DNA from: a virus
DNA length: 36,924 nt
Strand: one strand, 5' to 3'
Virus record (IMG/VR): IMGVR_UViG_3300044837_000017
Location: 1 to 36,924 of that record
The translations under genes were made by a program, and so were the position numbers. The notes under the pieces are model-generated. The model made no database searches and had not been told where the DNA came from. It worked only from the letters and a program-made list of their open reading frames with translations. Below are positions 1,817-11,150 of this stretch, in pieces. Within the stretch, counting starts at the first letter, position 1; the number at the start of each line of letters is the position of its first letter.

Positions 1817-2332
1817 ATGGGACTTAGCAACGAAACATTTATTCACAATGCCGTCTCACAGGCTGCATCTTCAGGACATATCTTTCCGGAGATGGCAGCG
1901 TGTGAGGCGGCTCTAGAGTCGGCGAAGCAAGGCATATTTGGTGGGTCTTCGCTGGCACTCAGGTACAACAATCTGTTCGGGACCAAGCAGCACGCGGTAC
2001 CGGTCTTCAGTACTGTGTATCTTCCGACTCAGGAAGAAGTCACGCCGGAGGAATCAAAGAAGCTGAAGAATGCTGTCTTTGTTGCGGCATCCAGAAACGG
2101 CAAGAACATCTACACGTACGATGCACCGTGGATTGTCTACCCTGATTGGGCGGCAGCGTTCGGAGATCGCATGGCGACTCTTCGCAGGTTGCAGAACACG
2201 TATCCGCATTACAAGGCGGCGCTGAACGCTACTGATCCGATCACCTTCGTCAATCAAGTATCACTGACGTGGAGTACAGGGCAGAACCGGGCGGATTCGG
2301 TCATCAAGATTTATCACCAGTACATCAAGTAA
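1817..2332 (+). CDS. Endolysin, glucosaminidase (GH73-like)
   Basis: The 171-residue protein matches the glucosaminidase fold of GH73/FlgJ-type enzymes, which cut the glycan backbone of peptidoglycan. Visible hallmarks are the AALES motif (residues 31-35) with Glu34 as the likely catalytic acid, and YNNLFGTK (residues 50-57), the family's NNLFG[IT]K signature. Aromatic-rich segments with WIVYPDW (residues 105-111) and a final YHQYI complete the usual domain. There is no separate cell-wall-binding domain and no signal peptide, so it would need a holin to reach the wall. It starts at ATG 1817 behind GAGAGA. A role in lysis is more likely than in entry, since it sits away from the virion genes. 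Confidence 0.85.
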   Translation: MGLSNETFIHNAVSQAASSGHIFPEMAACEAALESAKQGIFGGSSLALRYNNLFGTKQHAVPVFSTVYLPTQEEVTPEESKKLKNAVFVAASRNGKNIYTYDAPWIVYPDWAAAFGDRMATLRRLQNTYPHYKAALNATDPITFVNQVSLTWSTGQNRADSVIKIYHQYIK

Positions 2333-2340
2333 GGAGAAGA

Positions 2341-2502
2341 ATGGTTTACGACGCAGTAATAACTTTGCGGTACGACGAGGCGGATGATACGTTCGTTCTC
2401 GCTACCCAGATACCGGGGCTTCCTGCTATGGAGGCTACGAGCAAGGTGATTTCCGATGTCTTCAATGACATCGCGCAGCAACTAGAAAACGAGGGTTCGT
2501 GA
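2341..2502 (+). CDS. Small HicB-like protein (orphan)
   Basis: ATG 2341 follows AAGGAGAAGA directly, so I chose it over an upstream in-frame start at 2269 that would overlap the endolysin. The 53-residue product reads like the small alpha/beta HicB antitoxin fold: an N-terminal beta hairpin (YDAVITLRYD), a TFVLATQIPGLPAME strand-turn, then an amphipathic helix to the end. No HicA-like toxin is next to it, and no DNA-binding tail is present. HicB-like folds are also found alone in phages. It ends in a GTGA overlap with the MazG-like gene, so the two are probably co-translated. The HicB link is a weak fold-level impression. Confidence 0.65.
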   Translation: MVYDAVITLRYDEADDTFVLATQIPGLPAMEATSKVISDVFNDIAQQLENEGS

Positions 2503-2888
2503 GCAAGCCAGTCATGCCTTTGTCGATATCATATTCGACCCTAGGCTTTACGTTGAACCAGTACCATCAGAAAGCTCTTGGTACTGCAAGTTATCCTTCT
2601 ATCGGTAGCAACATCATCTACCCGGCCTTGGGGCTGGCTGGTGAGGCTGGTGAAGTAGCTGACAAGATCAAGAAGCTGTGGCGCAATAAAGGGCTGTTCA
2701 ATCCGAAGGACTATCCTGAGGAGGATCGTCTGGCGCTCAAGAAGGAACTGGGTGATGTGCTCTGGTACGTCGCAGCTTGTGCCAATGAACTTGGGTACTC
2801 TCTTGAGGAGGTTGCGGTCGGCAACAACGAGAAGTTGGCAGATCGAGCCGCTCGTGGTACAATCAAGTCTGAAGGGGACGACCGATAA
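2499..2888 (+). CDS. MazG-like nucleotide pyrophosphohydrolase
   Basis: The 129-residue protein is a single-domain MazG-type all-alpha NTP pyrophosphohydrolase, which converts (d)NTP to (d)NMP plus pyrophosphate. The metal-binding signature is present: GEAGE (Glu49, Glu52) followed by KKELGDVLWY (Glu83, Asp86), the ExxE...ExxD pattern of the family. Length fits the single-domain phage forms rather than the two-domain bacterial MazG. It starts at GTG 2499 overlapping the previous stop and ends in TAATG with the next gene. In phages such enzymes adjust nucleotide pools or alarmone levels; which applies here cannot be told. Together with the reductase and the dATP/dGTP enzyme on the minus strand it suggests active control of dNTP supply. 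Confidence 0.85.
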   Translation: MSKPVMPLSISYSTLGFTLNQYHQKALGTASYPSIGSNIIYPALGLAGEAGEVADKIKKLWRNKGLFNPKDYPEEDRLALKKELGDVLWYVAACANELGYSLEEVAVGNNEKLADRAARGTIKSEGDDR

Positions 2889-2977
2889 TGTGGTACGGTG
2901 ACACGCTGACGAATCAAGTACTGGCTGTCATCGCTGCTGTATGCCTGATCGGAATCGTACTGAGAGGAAGAAAGTAA
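2888..2977 (+). CDS. Membrane micropeptide, 29 residues, copy 1 of tandem pair
   Basis: ATG 2888 overlaps the MazG-like stop (TAATG). The 29-residue peptide has an N-terminal MWYGDTLTNQ, a hydrophobic core of about 15 residues (VLAVIAAVCLIGIVL) and a basic tail RGRK. This is the layout of a single-pass membrane peptide with its basic end in the cytoplasm. The next reading frame encodes a clear paralogue with the same head, core and RGRK tail. GAGAGGAAG before the second copy would act as its ribosome-binding site. Function is unknown. A lysis-related or membrane-signalling role is a guess based on size, topology and an endolysin gene about 550 bases upstream. Confidence 0.7.
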   Translation: MWYGDTLTNQVLAVIAAVCLIGIVLRGRK

Positions 2978-3064
2978 ATGTGGCATGGTGACTCGATAAC
3001 GAATCAATTTTTGTTTGTCATTGCTATCTGCCAGATCGTTATTGTCCTGAGGGGGAGAAAGTAA
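2978..3064 (+). CDS. Membrane micropeptide, 28 residues, copy 2 of tandem pair
   Basis: This frame starts at ATG 2978 immediately after the stop of copy 1 and ends in TAATG with the next gene. The 28-residue product begins MWHGDSITNQ and ends VLRGRK, so its two ends match copy 1 (MW[YH]GD[TS][LI]TNQ and VLRGRK) while the membrane core differs (FLFVIAICQIVI) but stays hydrophobic. Divergence with kept ends and kept hydrophobicity argues that both copies are translated and selected. As with copy 1, it is predicted to be a single-pass inner-membrane peptide. Function is unknown. Confidence 0.7.
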   Translation: MWHGDSITNQFLFVIAICQIVIVLRGRK

Positions 3065-3225
3065 TGTTTGATGGATCGTACGCAGTGTGGAGAGATGGCG
3101 ACCACAAGAGCAAGTTCTGGGCGCGTGTCTACATGAATGGTCGTGTGGACTGGGTTCAAGGTGGATTCAGATCGAGCAGGAAGGCGCAGACCGCCGCGAA
3201 GGATCGTCTTGCCACTTACTACTAA
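3064..3225 (+). CDS. Small basic protein, possible AP2/Arm-like DNA-binding fold
   Basis: ATG 3064 overlaps the stop of micropeptide copy 2 and is preceded by GAGGGGGAG. The 53-residue product is basic. It has a pattern of three short strands and one helix: KFWARVYMNG, then VDWVQGGF, then a helix around SRKAQTAAKDRLA. That order resembles AP2 or integrase Arm-type DNA-binding domains, in which an F-x-[ST] turn precedes the helix. The likeness is by eye only. It is tightly coupled in the operon. The following reading frame overlaps its end. Confidence 0.6.
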   Translation: MFDGSYAVWRDGDHKSKFWARVYMNGRVDWVQGGFRSSRKAQTAAKDRLATYY

Positions 3226-3409
3226 CCACATCAAGACTGTATACTTCTACAAGCACGGTAAGTGGATCAAGCTTATCCGTGGTAGACTTAGCTCATACTC
3301 ATTGGCTTACGCGGTTCAACACTTTCGCCGTCGCAGGATTCCCGTGGCGGTTGAACTAACCCAGTTTGGGAGGATTCAAAGATGGCTGTTATCATTGCCT
3401 TCCCGGTAG
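3209..3409 (+). CDS. Possible small basic protein from TTG start, unknown
   Basis: The stretch 3226-3381 would otherwise be empty in a packed operon, and this frame is open across it. The likeliest start is TTG 3209, five bases after AAGGA, giving about 66 residues. The middle reads like real protein (a TVYFYKHGKW strand pair, then a helix with HFRRRR), while the last ten residues overlap the next gene. Absence of ATG or GTG makes the call uncertain. Alternatives are a frameshift product of the preceding gene or non-coding sequence. Confidence 0.35.
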   Translation: MPLTTNHIKTVYFYKHGKWIKLIRGRLSSYSLAYAVQHFRRRRIPVAVELTQFGRIQRWLLSLPSR

Positions 3410-3642
3410 GTCCAGACTTACTGGCGGCGAAGTCTAAGGCGGGCAAGCACACGGATGCAGAATATGCGCTGTGGAGGCTTGCCCGTTTCTACGTGGATAT
3501 GAACCACATCACCGGGTCAAAGGATGTCTTCAAAGAAGGTGGGCGCGTGGCTCATACGGCACTTGAATTTGTCGGGCAAGTGTGCGATACTATTGGATAT
3601 CACAAGCCGGGCCAGATGGCGGACCCGCAGGGAGTAGCATGA
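3382..3642 (+). CDS. Small unknown protein
   Basis: ATG 3382 lies behind GGGAGG with 8 bases of spacing. The 86-residue product looks soluble and largely helical, with a Lys/Ala-rich N-terminal part, an aromatic-containing helix (YALWRLARFYVDM, residues about 28-40) and a central helix ending in a HTALEFVGQVCDTIGY-type segment. No metal site, membrane segment or signal peptide is visible. Its stop overlaps the next ATG (ATGA), so it is co-translated with the next gene. I do not recognise the family. Confidence 0.7.
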   Translation: MAVIIAFPVGPDLLAAKSKAGKHTDAEYALWRLARFYVDMNHITGSKDVFKEGGRVAHTALEFVGQVCDTIGYHKPGQMADPQGVA

Positions 3643-4039: not shown

Positions 4040-4297
4040 ATGAATCTTGAAGACGCAAAGATGCAAGCCTCGATCTGGTGGGGCAACCATGGCTCTGCTG
4101 AGAGCATTGAAGGCAAGGGGTGGATTAGATATCGCGTAGGGCTTACACACCTTCCTGCGGCTCTTGGTGGGCGCGTGGAGGAGCGGTACGGGGCTTCGTG
4201 GAAGAGCTTTGAAGCTGCCTTCGCAGACGCGGTGAATAAAGGGCACTTCCCGATAACAGGTTTCGAGGGTGATGACGCCTTAGTAGATGAGGCTTGA
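4040..4297 (+). CDS. Small unknown protein
   Basis: ATG 4040 directly follows the previous stop; AAGGGCGG upstream could serve as ribosome-binding site. The 85-residue product contains several Trp and Gly residues (IWWGNHG near residue 15, GKGWIRYRVG near residue 30) and an acidic C-terminus. It is probably a small soluble alpha/beta protein. Its last codons contain the -35 box of the promoter for the following gene, so it is the last member of the overlapping operon. I do not recognise the family. Confidence 0.7.
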   Translation: MNLEDAKMQASIWWGNHGSAESIEGKGWIRYRVGLTHLPAALGGRVEERYGASWKSFEAAFADAVNKGHFPITGFEGDDALVDEA

Positions 4298-4321
4298 CAT
4301 GAACCTCGTGTATGCTATAAT
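4294..4321 (+). promoter_or_regulatory. Consensus sigma70 promoter for winged-helix gene
   Basis: A perfect TTGACA (4294-4299) is followed after 16 bases by a perfect TATAAT (4316-4321). Transcription would begin near 4328, about 20 bases before the ATG at 4350. Both boxes are exact consensus, which is rare inside a gene-packed phage region. Confidence 0.85.
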
Positions 4322-4349: not shown

Positions 4350-4685
4350 ATGAGTGAAGTTTCAGCAGTTCAGGCGGTTACCCCGAAGACACAGATCGGG
4401 CGTATCCTTGTGGTGATGGCCGACAACAAGTGGCGCACCGAGCAAGTCATTCGCGAGACGTTGGAAAAGAACTACCCCGGCATTCCGATCACGGGTTCGC
4501 TTCCGGCACAGCTTCGGGACATCCGCAAGAAGGCTGGCTACACTGTGGCCAGTGAGAAGATCAAAGAAGGTGTGCGTGGCTTCTGGCAGTATCGGGTCGG
4601 CAAGTCCGAGCAACTCGATGCTCCTTTCGTTCCCACTACGTTCGGCGCTGCGCTCAGCGATACCGGCTGCGGCGACATCATCTAA
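4350..4685 (+). CDS. Winged-helix DNA-binding protein, likely regulator
   Basis: ATG 4350 follows AAGGAGAAACAAT, so I reject the longer frame from 4287. The 111-residue product matches the winged helix-turn-helix pattern seen in many small phage proteins. A helix around GRILVVMADNKW (residues 17-28) is followed by RTEQVIRETL as the second helix. A recognition-like helix at SLPAQLRDIRKKAGY (residues 50-64) comes next, then a beta wing closing with FWQYRVG (residues 78-84). The C-terminal 25 residues are probably flexible. It has its own consensus promoter and is followed at once by a terminator, so it is made as a single-gene transcript from host RNA polymerase. That points to an early regulator. 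Its target is unknown; the palindromes at 9870-9903 and 11095-11150 are candidates. Confidence 0.75.
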   Translation: MSEVSAVQAVTPKTQIGRILVVMADNKWRTEQVIRETLEKNYPGIPITGSLPAQLRDIRKKAGYTVASEKIKEGVRGFWQYRVGKSEQLDAPFVPTTFGAALSDTGCGDII

Positions 4686-4707
4686 CACCTCACCAAACAA
4701 AAAAAAG

Positions 4708-4731
4708 AACCCTCCCGGCTAAGGGAGGGTT
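4708..4731. terminator. Bidirectional rho-independent terminator between convergent operons
   Basis: A 9-bp perfect stem (AACCCTCCC at 4708-4716, GGGAGGGTT at 4723-4731) surrounds a 6-base loop. On the plus strand it is followed by TTTCTTG. On the minus strand it is followed by a run of eight T, so it should stop transcripts from both the winged-helix gene and the reductase operon. Confidence 0.92.
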
Positions 4732-4797
4732 TCTTGTTGGTCCTGATAGCTTCTCAGGCGCTTAGTTAGACTTTCGTCCTGATTTCTAAATCTTGCT

Positions 4798-9907: not shown

Positions 9908-10327
9908 TTACTTCTTGCGGGCGGGCGCGAGAACGGCTCTCGGTGCAGCTTTCTTCTTCTTGGTGGTCTTTGGTGCTTTCTTGTACACACGCTTCTGTGC
10001 AGGCTTGGAGCGTACCGGTACCATCTTGACAGATGCGGGCGGGTTGAAGTAGGCGCGGAAATCGTCACGAAGCTCTTGAAGCTCTCGGACTACGGATGAT
10101 GTTTGAAACTCGGTCGAGCGGAGTTGGGCGGCGCTTGTGTCCTCGATCTTTTGAGAGACGGTCTGTAAGCTGGTCTTGACTTCAGGAAAGTCTTCTTCCC
10201 GAATGCCTTTGACCCACTGAAAAGTCTTATATCCGCCGATGGCTAATCCGGCGAACATCGAGAGGAAAGTTATCCAAAACTTGCCGCTCTCCAAGGAGTG
10301 AGTTACTACCTCAAGATTGAGTTGCAT
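9908..10327 (-). CDS. Small membrane protein with lysine-rich tail
   Basis: The start is ATG 10327, six bases after GGGGA, rather than the upstream in-frame start at 10393 that lies inside the previous gene. The 139-residue product has one membrane segment near residues 18-38 (WITFLSMFAGLAIGGY). A soluble helical region with heptad-like spacing follows (residues about 45-85), then a very basic C-terminal tail rich in Lys, Arg and Ala (about residues 95-139). A cytoplasmic basic tail could touch nucleic acid or the membrane surface. It overlaps the previous membrane gene by 17 bases, so the two probably act together, perhaps in lysis. Function is not established. Confidence 0.65.
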   Translation of the reverse strand: MQLNLEVVTHSLESGKFWITFLSMFAGLAIGGYKTFQWVKGIREEDFPEVKTSLQTVSQKIEDTSAAQLRSTEFQTSSVVRELQELRDDFRAYFNPPASVKMVPVRSKPAQKRVYKKAPKTTKKKKAAPRAVLAPARKK

Positions 10328-10649
10328 CGTTGTTCCCCGTAGGTAGATCAGATGGTGCAATAGGTGCGGTTCCCTTTGAAGCGGCCACGACATTCTTGAC
10401 CTGATTGGCGAGATACTGTGCTTGGCCTCCGGCGACGAATGCGGTAGGGCCGGTCATATCAGGGAACGCCTTATTGTGGATTACAAGGTACGTGACCCAA
10501 CAGAGCGTTGCGATGATAATCAGGAATCCAGAATAGCGGCTGTACGAGCCTACACCATTTTCCGATAATACTTCTCGAAGGGGAGGCGGTAACAGCGCCG
10601 ACAGGCTCTTGACTTTCGAGAAGGCAGATTTGATATAAGCTAATTTCAT
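10311..10649 (-). CDS. Small membrane protein, holin candidate
   Basis: ATG 10649 follows AAGGA with six bases of spacing. The 112-residue product has a basic N-terminus, a clear membrane helix at about residues 42-58 (FLIIIATLCWVTYLVI) and a weaker hydrophobic segment near residues 66-84 (GPTAFVAGGQAQYLA). The C-terminus is flexible and polar. A helix, a short loop with a Pro-Asp, and a second weak helix is a layout seen in many phage holin-like proteins. Location between a hydrolase candidate and another membrane protein supports a lysis role, but no specific family was recognised. Confidence 0.65.
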   Translation of the reverse strand: MKLAYIKSAFSKVKSLSALLPPPLREVLSENGVGSYSRYSGFLIIIATLCWVTYLVIHNKAFPDMTGPTAFVAGGQAQYLANQVKNVVAASKGTAPIAPSDLPTGNNDATQS

Positions 10650-10658
10650 AACTTGTCC

Positions 10659-11066
10659 TTATGTGTAACAAGCAAGAGTATTCATCTCCAGTACACGTTT
10701 GTGATCTGGGTCCGCAAGAATCTTGTTTTTGAAGAACGCTGTATCGATGCGACGTGTGTCACACCAGTACGTCGCGCCTTTCGCGTGGTCACGGGTTCCT
10801 TCATAGATAGCGCCAACTTCAGTGAGAAGCCGTAGGAACGCGGGATCGAACATCGCGGGAATTTCAAACTCTGGTATTTCAGTGGATGCTGCGAACTTAG
10901 ACAGTGAGGAGATCGCTGTAATTACGTTAGGACTCCAACCGCGTCGTACACGGTTCATGAGACAGGAGCCGATAATGCAAGAGGCCAGATGACCGCCGTA
11001 CTCCTTCCCGTATTGCCACATGACATCTACGAGTTTTGATTTTTGGTAATCGTCTTGGCGAAGCAT
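10659..11066 (-). CDS. Divergent SleB-like cell wall hydrolase candidate
   Basis: I prefer ATG 11066, three bases after AAGGAGG, over the in-frame GTG at 11096, which has no good site and lies inside a palindrome. The 135-residue product follows the SleB/Hydrolase_2 layout: an N-terminal helix, a CLMNRVRRG segment that matches the family's VILNRV[KR] helix, and a KGATYW motif near the C-terminus like the family's GGATxF/Y. The usual GEARGE loop with the catalytic Glu is replaced by YGKEYGG, so Glu is shifted or absent and activity is uncertain. Two membrane-protein genes follow directly. If it is active, the phage has two wall enzymes; the other is at 1817-2332. Confidence 0.6.
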   Translation of the reverse strand: MLRQDDYQKSKLVDVMWQYGKEYGGHLASCIIGSCLMNRVRRGWSPNVITAISSLSKFAASTEIPEFEIPAMFDPAFLRLLTEVGAIYEGTRDHAKGATYWCDTRRIDTAFFKNKILADPDHKRVLEMNTLACYT

Positions 11067-11094
11067 CGCCCTCCTTGATCTATACGTCAATATC

Positions 11095-11150
11095 ACCTCA
11101 TATACTGGGTAAAAGTGACGTATACATCAACTTTGCCTAGTATATGAGGT
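11095..11150. promoter_or_regulatory. Long AT-rich inverted repeat, operator-like
   Basis: ACCTCATATACT (11095-11106) is repeated perfectly inverted as AGTATATGAGGT (11139-11150), and the match continues inward as [GA]GG/CC to 15 bases with one mismatch. The 26-base spacer and the right flank also hold two copies of a TTGA[TC]GTATA element on the minus strand (starting near 11131 and 11090). It lies between the end of the gp16-position gene and the hydrolase cluster. AT-rich arms and lack of a T run argue for a protein-binding site rather than a terminator. Confidence 0.6.

Follow-up and report, generated by a model that had tools for sequence, protein, structure and literature searches.

Two very small open reading frames (ORFs), here called A and B, lie next to each other near the start of the window, that is, the whole stretch of 36,924 nucleotides analysed from the IMG/VR virus record IMGVR_UViG_3300044837_000017 (Table 1). 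Both frames, of 29 and 28 residues, are present on the plus strand exactly where a first-pass annotation, made from the letters alone, had placed them. Each copy has one predicted membrane span and a hydrophobic core (14 of 15 core residues are hydrophobic in A and 13 of 14 in B; the best 15-residue hydropathy is 3.28 and 2.74, respectively), which bears out the single-pass membrane character originally attributed to the pair. The signals for translational coupling are likewise in place. A begins on the final base of the mazG stop (TAATG), the start of B stands immediately 3' of the stop of A (TAAATG), and the ORF at 3064 begins on the last base of the stop of B (again TAATG). All three starts are preceded at workable spacing by a Shine-Dalgarno match, with duplex energies of -7.9 kcal/mol for A, -6.0 kcal/mol for B and -11.2 kcal/mol for the gene at 3064.

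Table 1. Features at and around the micropeptide locus (window coordinates).
Feature	Position	Strand	Remarks
Glucosaminidase-type endolysin	1817..2332	+	about 0.56 kb upstream of A/B, same gene run
MazG-like pyrophosphatase	2499..2888	+	conserved neighbour upstream of A; marks the variable slot
sigma70-like promoter match TTGGCA-17-TACAAT	2835..2863	+	10 of 12 positions, TG before -10; inside mazG, ends 24 nt before A; consensus match only
Shine-Dalgarno match AAGGGG of A	2872..2877	+	coincides with codons of the conserved MazG tail, SEGD[DN]R
Micropeptide A, 29 aa, MWYGDTLTNQVLAVIAAVCLIGIVLRGRK	2888..2977	+	predicted span residues 11-25; charge N-terminal -1, C-terminal +3
Shine-Dalgarno match AGAGGAAG of B	2963..2970	+	within the RGRK codons of A
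Micropeptide B, 28 aa, MWHGDSITNQFLFVIAICQIVIVLRGRK	2978..3064	+	tandem paralogue of A; core one codon shorter
Shine-Dalgarno match GAGGGGGAG of the gene at 3064	3049..3057	+	within the LRGRK codons of B
Orphan ORF after B, 53 aa	3064..3225	+	overlaps the stop of B; no homologue found
86 aa protein, homologue of Tunturi_3 gp37 (58%)	3382..3642	+	downstream border of the variable interval

The window phage is a soil phage and a relative of Tunturiibacter phage Tunturi_3, the two major head (capsid) proteins being 95.6% identical. Tunturi_3 is a 97.6-kb podovirus whose isolation host is a soil Acidobacteriota bacterium (PMC11924767). Common to both phages is the order cysteine-dioxygenase-like protein, endolysin, 53-aa protein, MazG, variable interval, gp37 homologue and convergent ribonucleotide reductase; the endolysins at this position have no detectable likeness to each other. 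The variable interval is occupied by gp39 and an ATPase in Tunturi_3, which carries neither A nor B there, and by A, B and the 53-aa ORF in the window. Elsewhere in the window, the ORFs at 977-1711 and 1341-1805 share about 370 nt, read in different frames, and the latter, whose C-terminal half is cysteine-rich, has a 53% homologue in Tunturi_3 (L100 6372-6692) that is unannotated there. A sigma70-like promoter agreeing with the consensus at 12 of 12 positions, with TG before the -10 element, precedes the ORF at 4350-4685 (promoter at 4294-4321), and a hairpin that resembles a terminator on either strand (4707-4732) parts the two convergent gene runs.

A and B had been described as tandem paralogues, and this description holds. 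They are identical at 20 of 28 aligned residues and at 64 of 84 coding bases. Their BLOSUM62 score of 97 compares with a mean of 17.9 (sd 3.9) and a maximum of 43 for shuffled copies, and of the 14,864 pairs of neighbouring small ORFs in 1.9 Mb (the window and related loci) they match best, the runner-up scoring 52. Given that the score lies far above the shuffles and above every other adjacent pair, we consider the duplication certain. Because of its M-[FW]-[DH]-G start, the 53-aa ORF at 3064 was examined as a candidate third copy, but it was rejected, since the long repeat families are formed by A and B only. The first-pass picture of nearly the same N-terminal ten residues followed by a differing, hydrophobic core requires some correction. 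The head differences are indeed conservative (Y/H, T/S and L/I swaps), but its identity is just 7 of 10; the core does stay hydrophobic, but its identity of about 8 of 14 is not clearly below that of the head.

The substitutions separating the two copies are biased against amino acid replacement. Of 19.7 synonymous sites 10 differ, against 10 of 64.3 nonsynonymous ones, which gives a dN/dS of about 0.2 (Fisher p = 0.005); the test is based on 20 substitutions in one paralogue pair. The p value is 0.027 when the start is left out together with the final five codons, which bear the Shine-Dalgarno site, and ranges from 0.005 to 0.04 across alternative gap placements. Moreover, the reading frame is preserved across a 3-nt indel between the copies. 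When 20 random substitutions were simulated, about half of the copies remained open, 3-6% of the stop-free simulations kept at least 20 identical residues, and 0.9% of the simulations jointly had no stop, at least 20 identities and an equally hydrophobic core. A recent, still readable tandem duplication is an internal sign of selection that needs no orthologue. The evidence from these comparisons that A and B are selected peptides is moderate and not strong, because it comes from one pair and 20 changes.

How the C-terminal tail should be read deserves particular care. The LRGRK codons of the two copies (CTGAGAGGAAGAAAG and CTGAGGGGGAGAAAG) double as Shine-Dalgarno sites of the following starts, so that the conservation of LRGRK is over-determined: retention for the peptide and retention for the ribosome-binding site are two reasons that are inseparable here. 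It had been argued that conserved ends imply that both peptides are expressed and selected. Selection is moderately backed by the dN/dS value, but the argument as worded was too strong, since the conserved tail is also a Shine-Dalgarno site. The tail of mazG is built similarly, its SEGD[DN]R codons holding the Shine-Dalgarno site for whichever gene comes next, and in 40 of the 67 distinct loci the following gene starts at the mazG stop or no more than a few bases away from it. Phages commonly have stops that overlap starts and Shine-Dalgarno sites located within the preceding gene. The most distinctive feature of the pair is the relay arrangement, in which each copy, through its tail, provides the next with a ribosome-binding site. 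An in-frame duplication behind the Shine-Dalgarno-bearing tail of mazG would therefore be translated at once. Taken further, A and B might form a self-relaying micropeptide cassette, in which the LRGRK codons of each peptide serve as ribosome-binding site for the next copy and allow the phage to expand and diversify, in this variable slot, a set of membrane peptides directed at the host; we put this forward as a speculation that is rather unlikely to be right in full.

The same codons invite a rival explanation, namely that A and B are non-functional peptides, a by-product of duplication that was kept for its translation signals and passes ribosomes on from mazG to the ORF at 3064. The coincidence of tail codons and Shine-Dalgarno sites is what such a relay would leave behind, the collections searched hold no homologues, and the share of simulated copies left open by random substitution is also compatible with it. 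Nonetheless, the synonymous excess extends outside the tail (p = 0.027), the frame has been maintained across the indel, and a core that stays hydrophobic at 14 of 15 and 13 of 14 positions belongs to a joint outcome that chance produced in 0.9% of simulations. We regard non-functional peptides as an unlikely reading, albeit one that deserves real weight. An RNA element as an alternative reading was rejected, given that the A/B locus has no Rfam match and no unusual RNA fold (no better than shuffles, z = +0.67). With regard to transcription, promoter matches as good as the one inside mazG occur at about 0.007 per 60 nt (about 0.7%) of the window, and this promoter-like site could add transcription of the pair.

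The position behind mazG is itself variable. The gene directly 3' of mazG belongs to 34 unrelated families in 67 distinct loci, and to 19 families in the 24 loci whose MazG is at least 54% identical, with the families coming from simple automatic ORF picking and some next genes therefore being uncertain. Their members include one DHH-like protein, one Prs-like enzyme and a secreted protein. Of 63 loci scanned, 5 yielded a hydrophobic ORF of 18-70 codons, so that the slot does not generally hold membrane micropeptides. A relative, L086, has independently acquired a comparable content (1839-2028): its slot is filled by two single-span micropeptide ORFs, 31 and 33 aa long, which overlap each other and are unrelated to A and B. 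Because the content of the slot varies in this manner, A and B are best seen as accessory cargo. If translated, A and B also mark the gap after mazG in Tunturi_3-like phages as a place to seek accessory host-directed genes, and the availability of isolated Tunturi_3 and a cultured Acidobacteriota host could make slot genes testable. Other genes of this region in relatives, named by eye, include ribose-phosphate-pyrophosphokinase-like genes downstream of mazG (L108 10850-13089, reverse complement; L086 2299-3123; L130) and, after the pyrophosphokinase-like gene in one relative, a nicotinamide-phosphoribosyltransferase-like gene; these genes possibly serve NAD salvage. Upstream of the lysis enzyme/mazG region, some relatives carry a conserved membrane protein of 47-50 aa with a GTG start (L090 709-861, L105 7364-7516, L087 1374-1517).

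Searches for relatives of the two peptides gave no homologue in any of the collections used. These comprised a degenerate DNA pattern of the head against IMG/VR (one chance match in a long intein-like ORF), tblastn with A against INPHARED and with B against PLSDB, pattern-based scans of IMG/VR and the GTDB species genomes derived from the A/B alignment, and regular expressions together with lenient tblastn over 1.8 Mb of related loci. An A/B profile matched nothing in 36 related or comparison records, while both window copies were recovered as a positive control. The absence of homologues is partly a matter of sampling, because IMG/VR has few close relatives covering the region. Pfam, NCBIfam, PHROG, PADLOC and PDB contain no significant match to either peptide, and antiphage-defence families are not represented among the A/B matches. 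The only weak family match, NF038351 against A (E = 0.07; 12.9 bits, cut-off 27.5), was rejected as a membership, being below the cut-off and leaving copy B without a match. In general kind, A and B belong to the small phage membrane proteins, which are already known, and they form an orphan family among these. If translated, they would be membrane micropeptides whose length is at or under the cut-off usually applied to genes, and it is only their duplication that reveals them as selected.

In GTDB genomes the degenerate head pattern retrieved seven SecY-like genes and three others, with no membrane micropeptide among them. The exact matches fall in SecY-like genes of seven Rickettsiales-type records, one of them confirmed as PF00344, and one might imagine that the head of A and B mimics the SecY loop MWLG[ED]-IT--GIGNG and interferes with the translocon. 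This is very improbable in our opinion: the observation is post hoc, the pattern having been derived from the head itself, the resemblance stops at residue 10, and neither A nor B matches PF00344. In addition, the SecY loop in question is cytoplasmic, opposite to the predicted topology of A and B, which has the head outside.

Lysis timing had been suggested as one possible role, and the glucosaminidase-type endolysin upstream shares a gene run with A and B. Holin/antiholin pairs are typically paired hydrophobic proteins with small differences, and A and B could accordingly be imagined as a minimal holin/antiholin or pinholin pair serving this endolysin. However, the window holds a separate three-gene set on the minus strand (9908-11096), whose products are homologues of Tunturi_3 gp26-gp28 at 69, 61 and 47% identity: a hydrolase-like gene (gp26 is annotated as endolysin), a one-span protein (homologue of gp27) and the gp28 homologue. 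This set is likely the late lysis cassette. Because Tunturi_3 is without A and B and yet keeps this separate cassette, an essential holin role is unlikely; Tunturi_3 also has the upstream-endolysin arrangement. Furthermore, peptides of 28-29 residues with one short span are under the usual holin size, and no holin family in Pfam, NCBIfam or PHROG matches them. A function in lysis timing is therefore disfavoured, and we judge it improbable.

Taken together, the explanation we favour, with a probability of roughly 0.4, is that A and B form an accessory pair of peptides that are translated together, reside in the inner membrane and act on the envelope of the host. The pair would have arisen by duplication of one ORF in the slot after mazG; since the tail codons of either copy already contain a ribosome-binding site for the following start, the new copy would, we propose, have been translated immediately. 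The rightward gene run of a Tunturi_3-like phage would give rise to both peptides together, and either peptide would span the membrane as one helix, its short MW-GD--TNQ head outside and its RGRK tail in the cytoplasm, an N-out/C-in orientation that the positive-inside rule predicts because the head carries a charge of -1 and the tail of +3. During infection they may bind or disturb a host membrane component, either for host takeover or perhaps shielding the cell against a second phage, a role for which the sequence has no signature. The sequence gives no indication of a target, an interaction or a phenotype.

Food for comparison is provided first by the small hydrophobic toxins of bacteria. 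Tandem ORFs of about 29 codons with one hydrophobic helix and cationic C-terminal residues are known from the Zor-Orz (ZorO), Ldr and Ibs systems of enterobacteria, and A and B are alike in all these respects. ZorO is a 29-residue inner-membrane peptide that was discovered by a search for tandemly duplicated small hydrophobic proteins (PMC8309996). By analogy, A and B might act like tandem type I toxins (ZorO, Ldr, TisB), entering the inner membrane and reducing the membrane potential at a late stage of infection; phage transcription, in place of an RNA antitoxin, would then determine the timing. Their size of 29 and 28 residues (below about 60), the duplication, the single hydrophobic helix and the cationic C-terminus all agree with this. 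Against it, no family match connects A or B to such toxins and there is no sequence homology, and early depolarisation would hurt the phage. No promoter for an antitoxin RNA was found (antisense sigma70-like matches in 2800-3400 reach at most 8 of 12 positions), and Rfam gave no match, although an antitoxin sRNA encoded in trans would be compatible with this result. A long structured leader that sequesters the ribosome-binding site was likewise not found (fold z = 0.67); A and B instead stand in a tight phage gene run, where starts are coupled and directly adjoin or overlap the stops before them. A toxin-like action consequently seems to us fairly improbable.

Phage holins and pinholins are also short hydrophobic phage proteins, and A and B even lie in the same run as an endolysin; they are, however, far shorter, have one span and are accessory, the conserved lysis cassette of this phage group being located elsewhere. 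The cytochrome oxidase small assembly protein (NF038351, 30 aa) resembles A in length and in its single span. Small phage genes have reportedly been predicted by Fremin et al. in 2022. The broadest likeness is to the phage small-protein complement, whose members are under 100 aa, are easily missed by gene finders and mostly have no assigned function, just as A and B (for small proteins of phage genomes, see the review PMC11323111). What sets A and B apart from this complement is their recent and readable tandem duplication.
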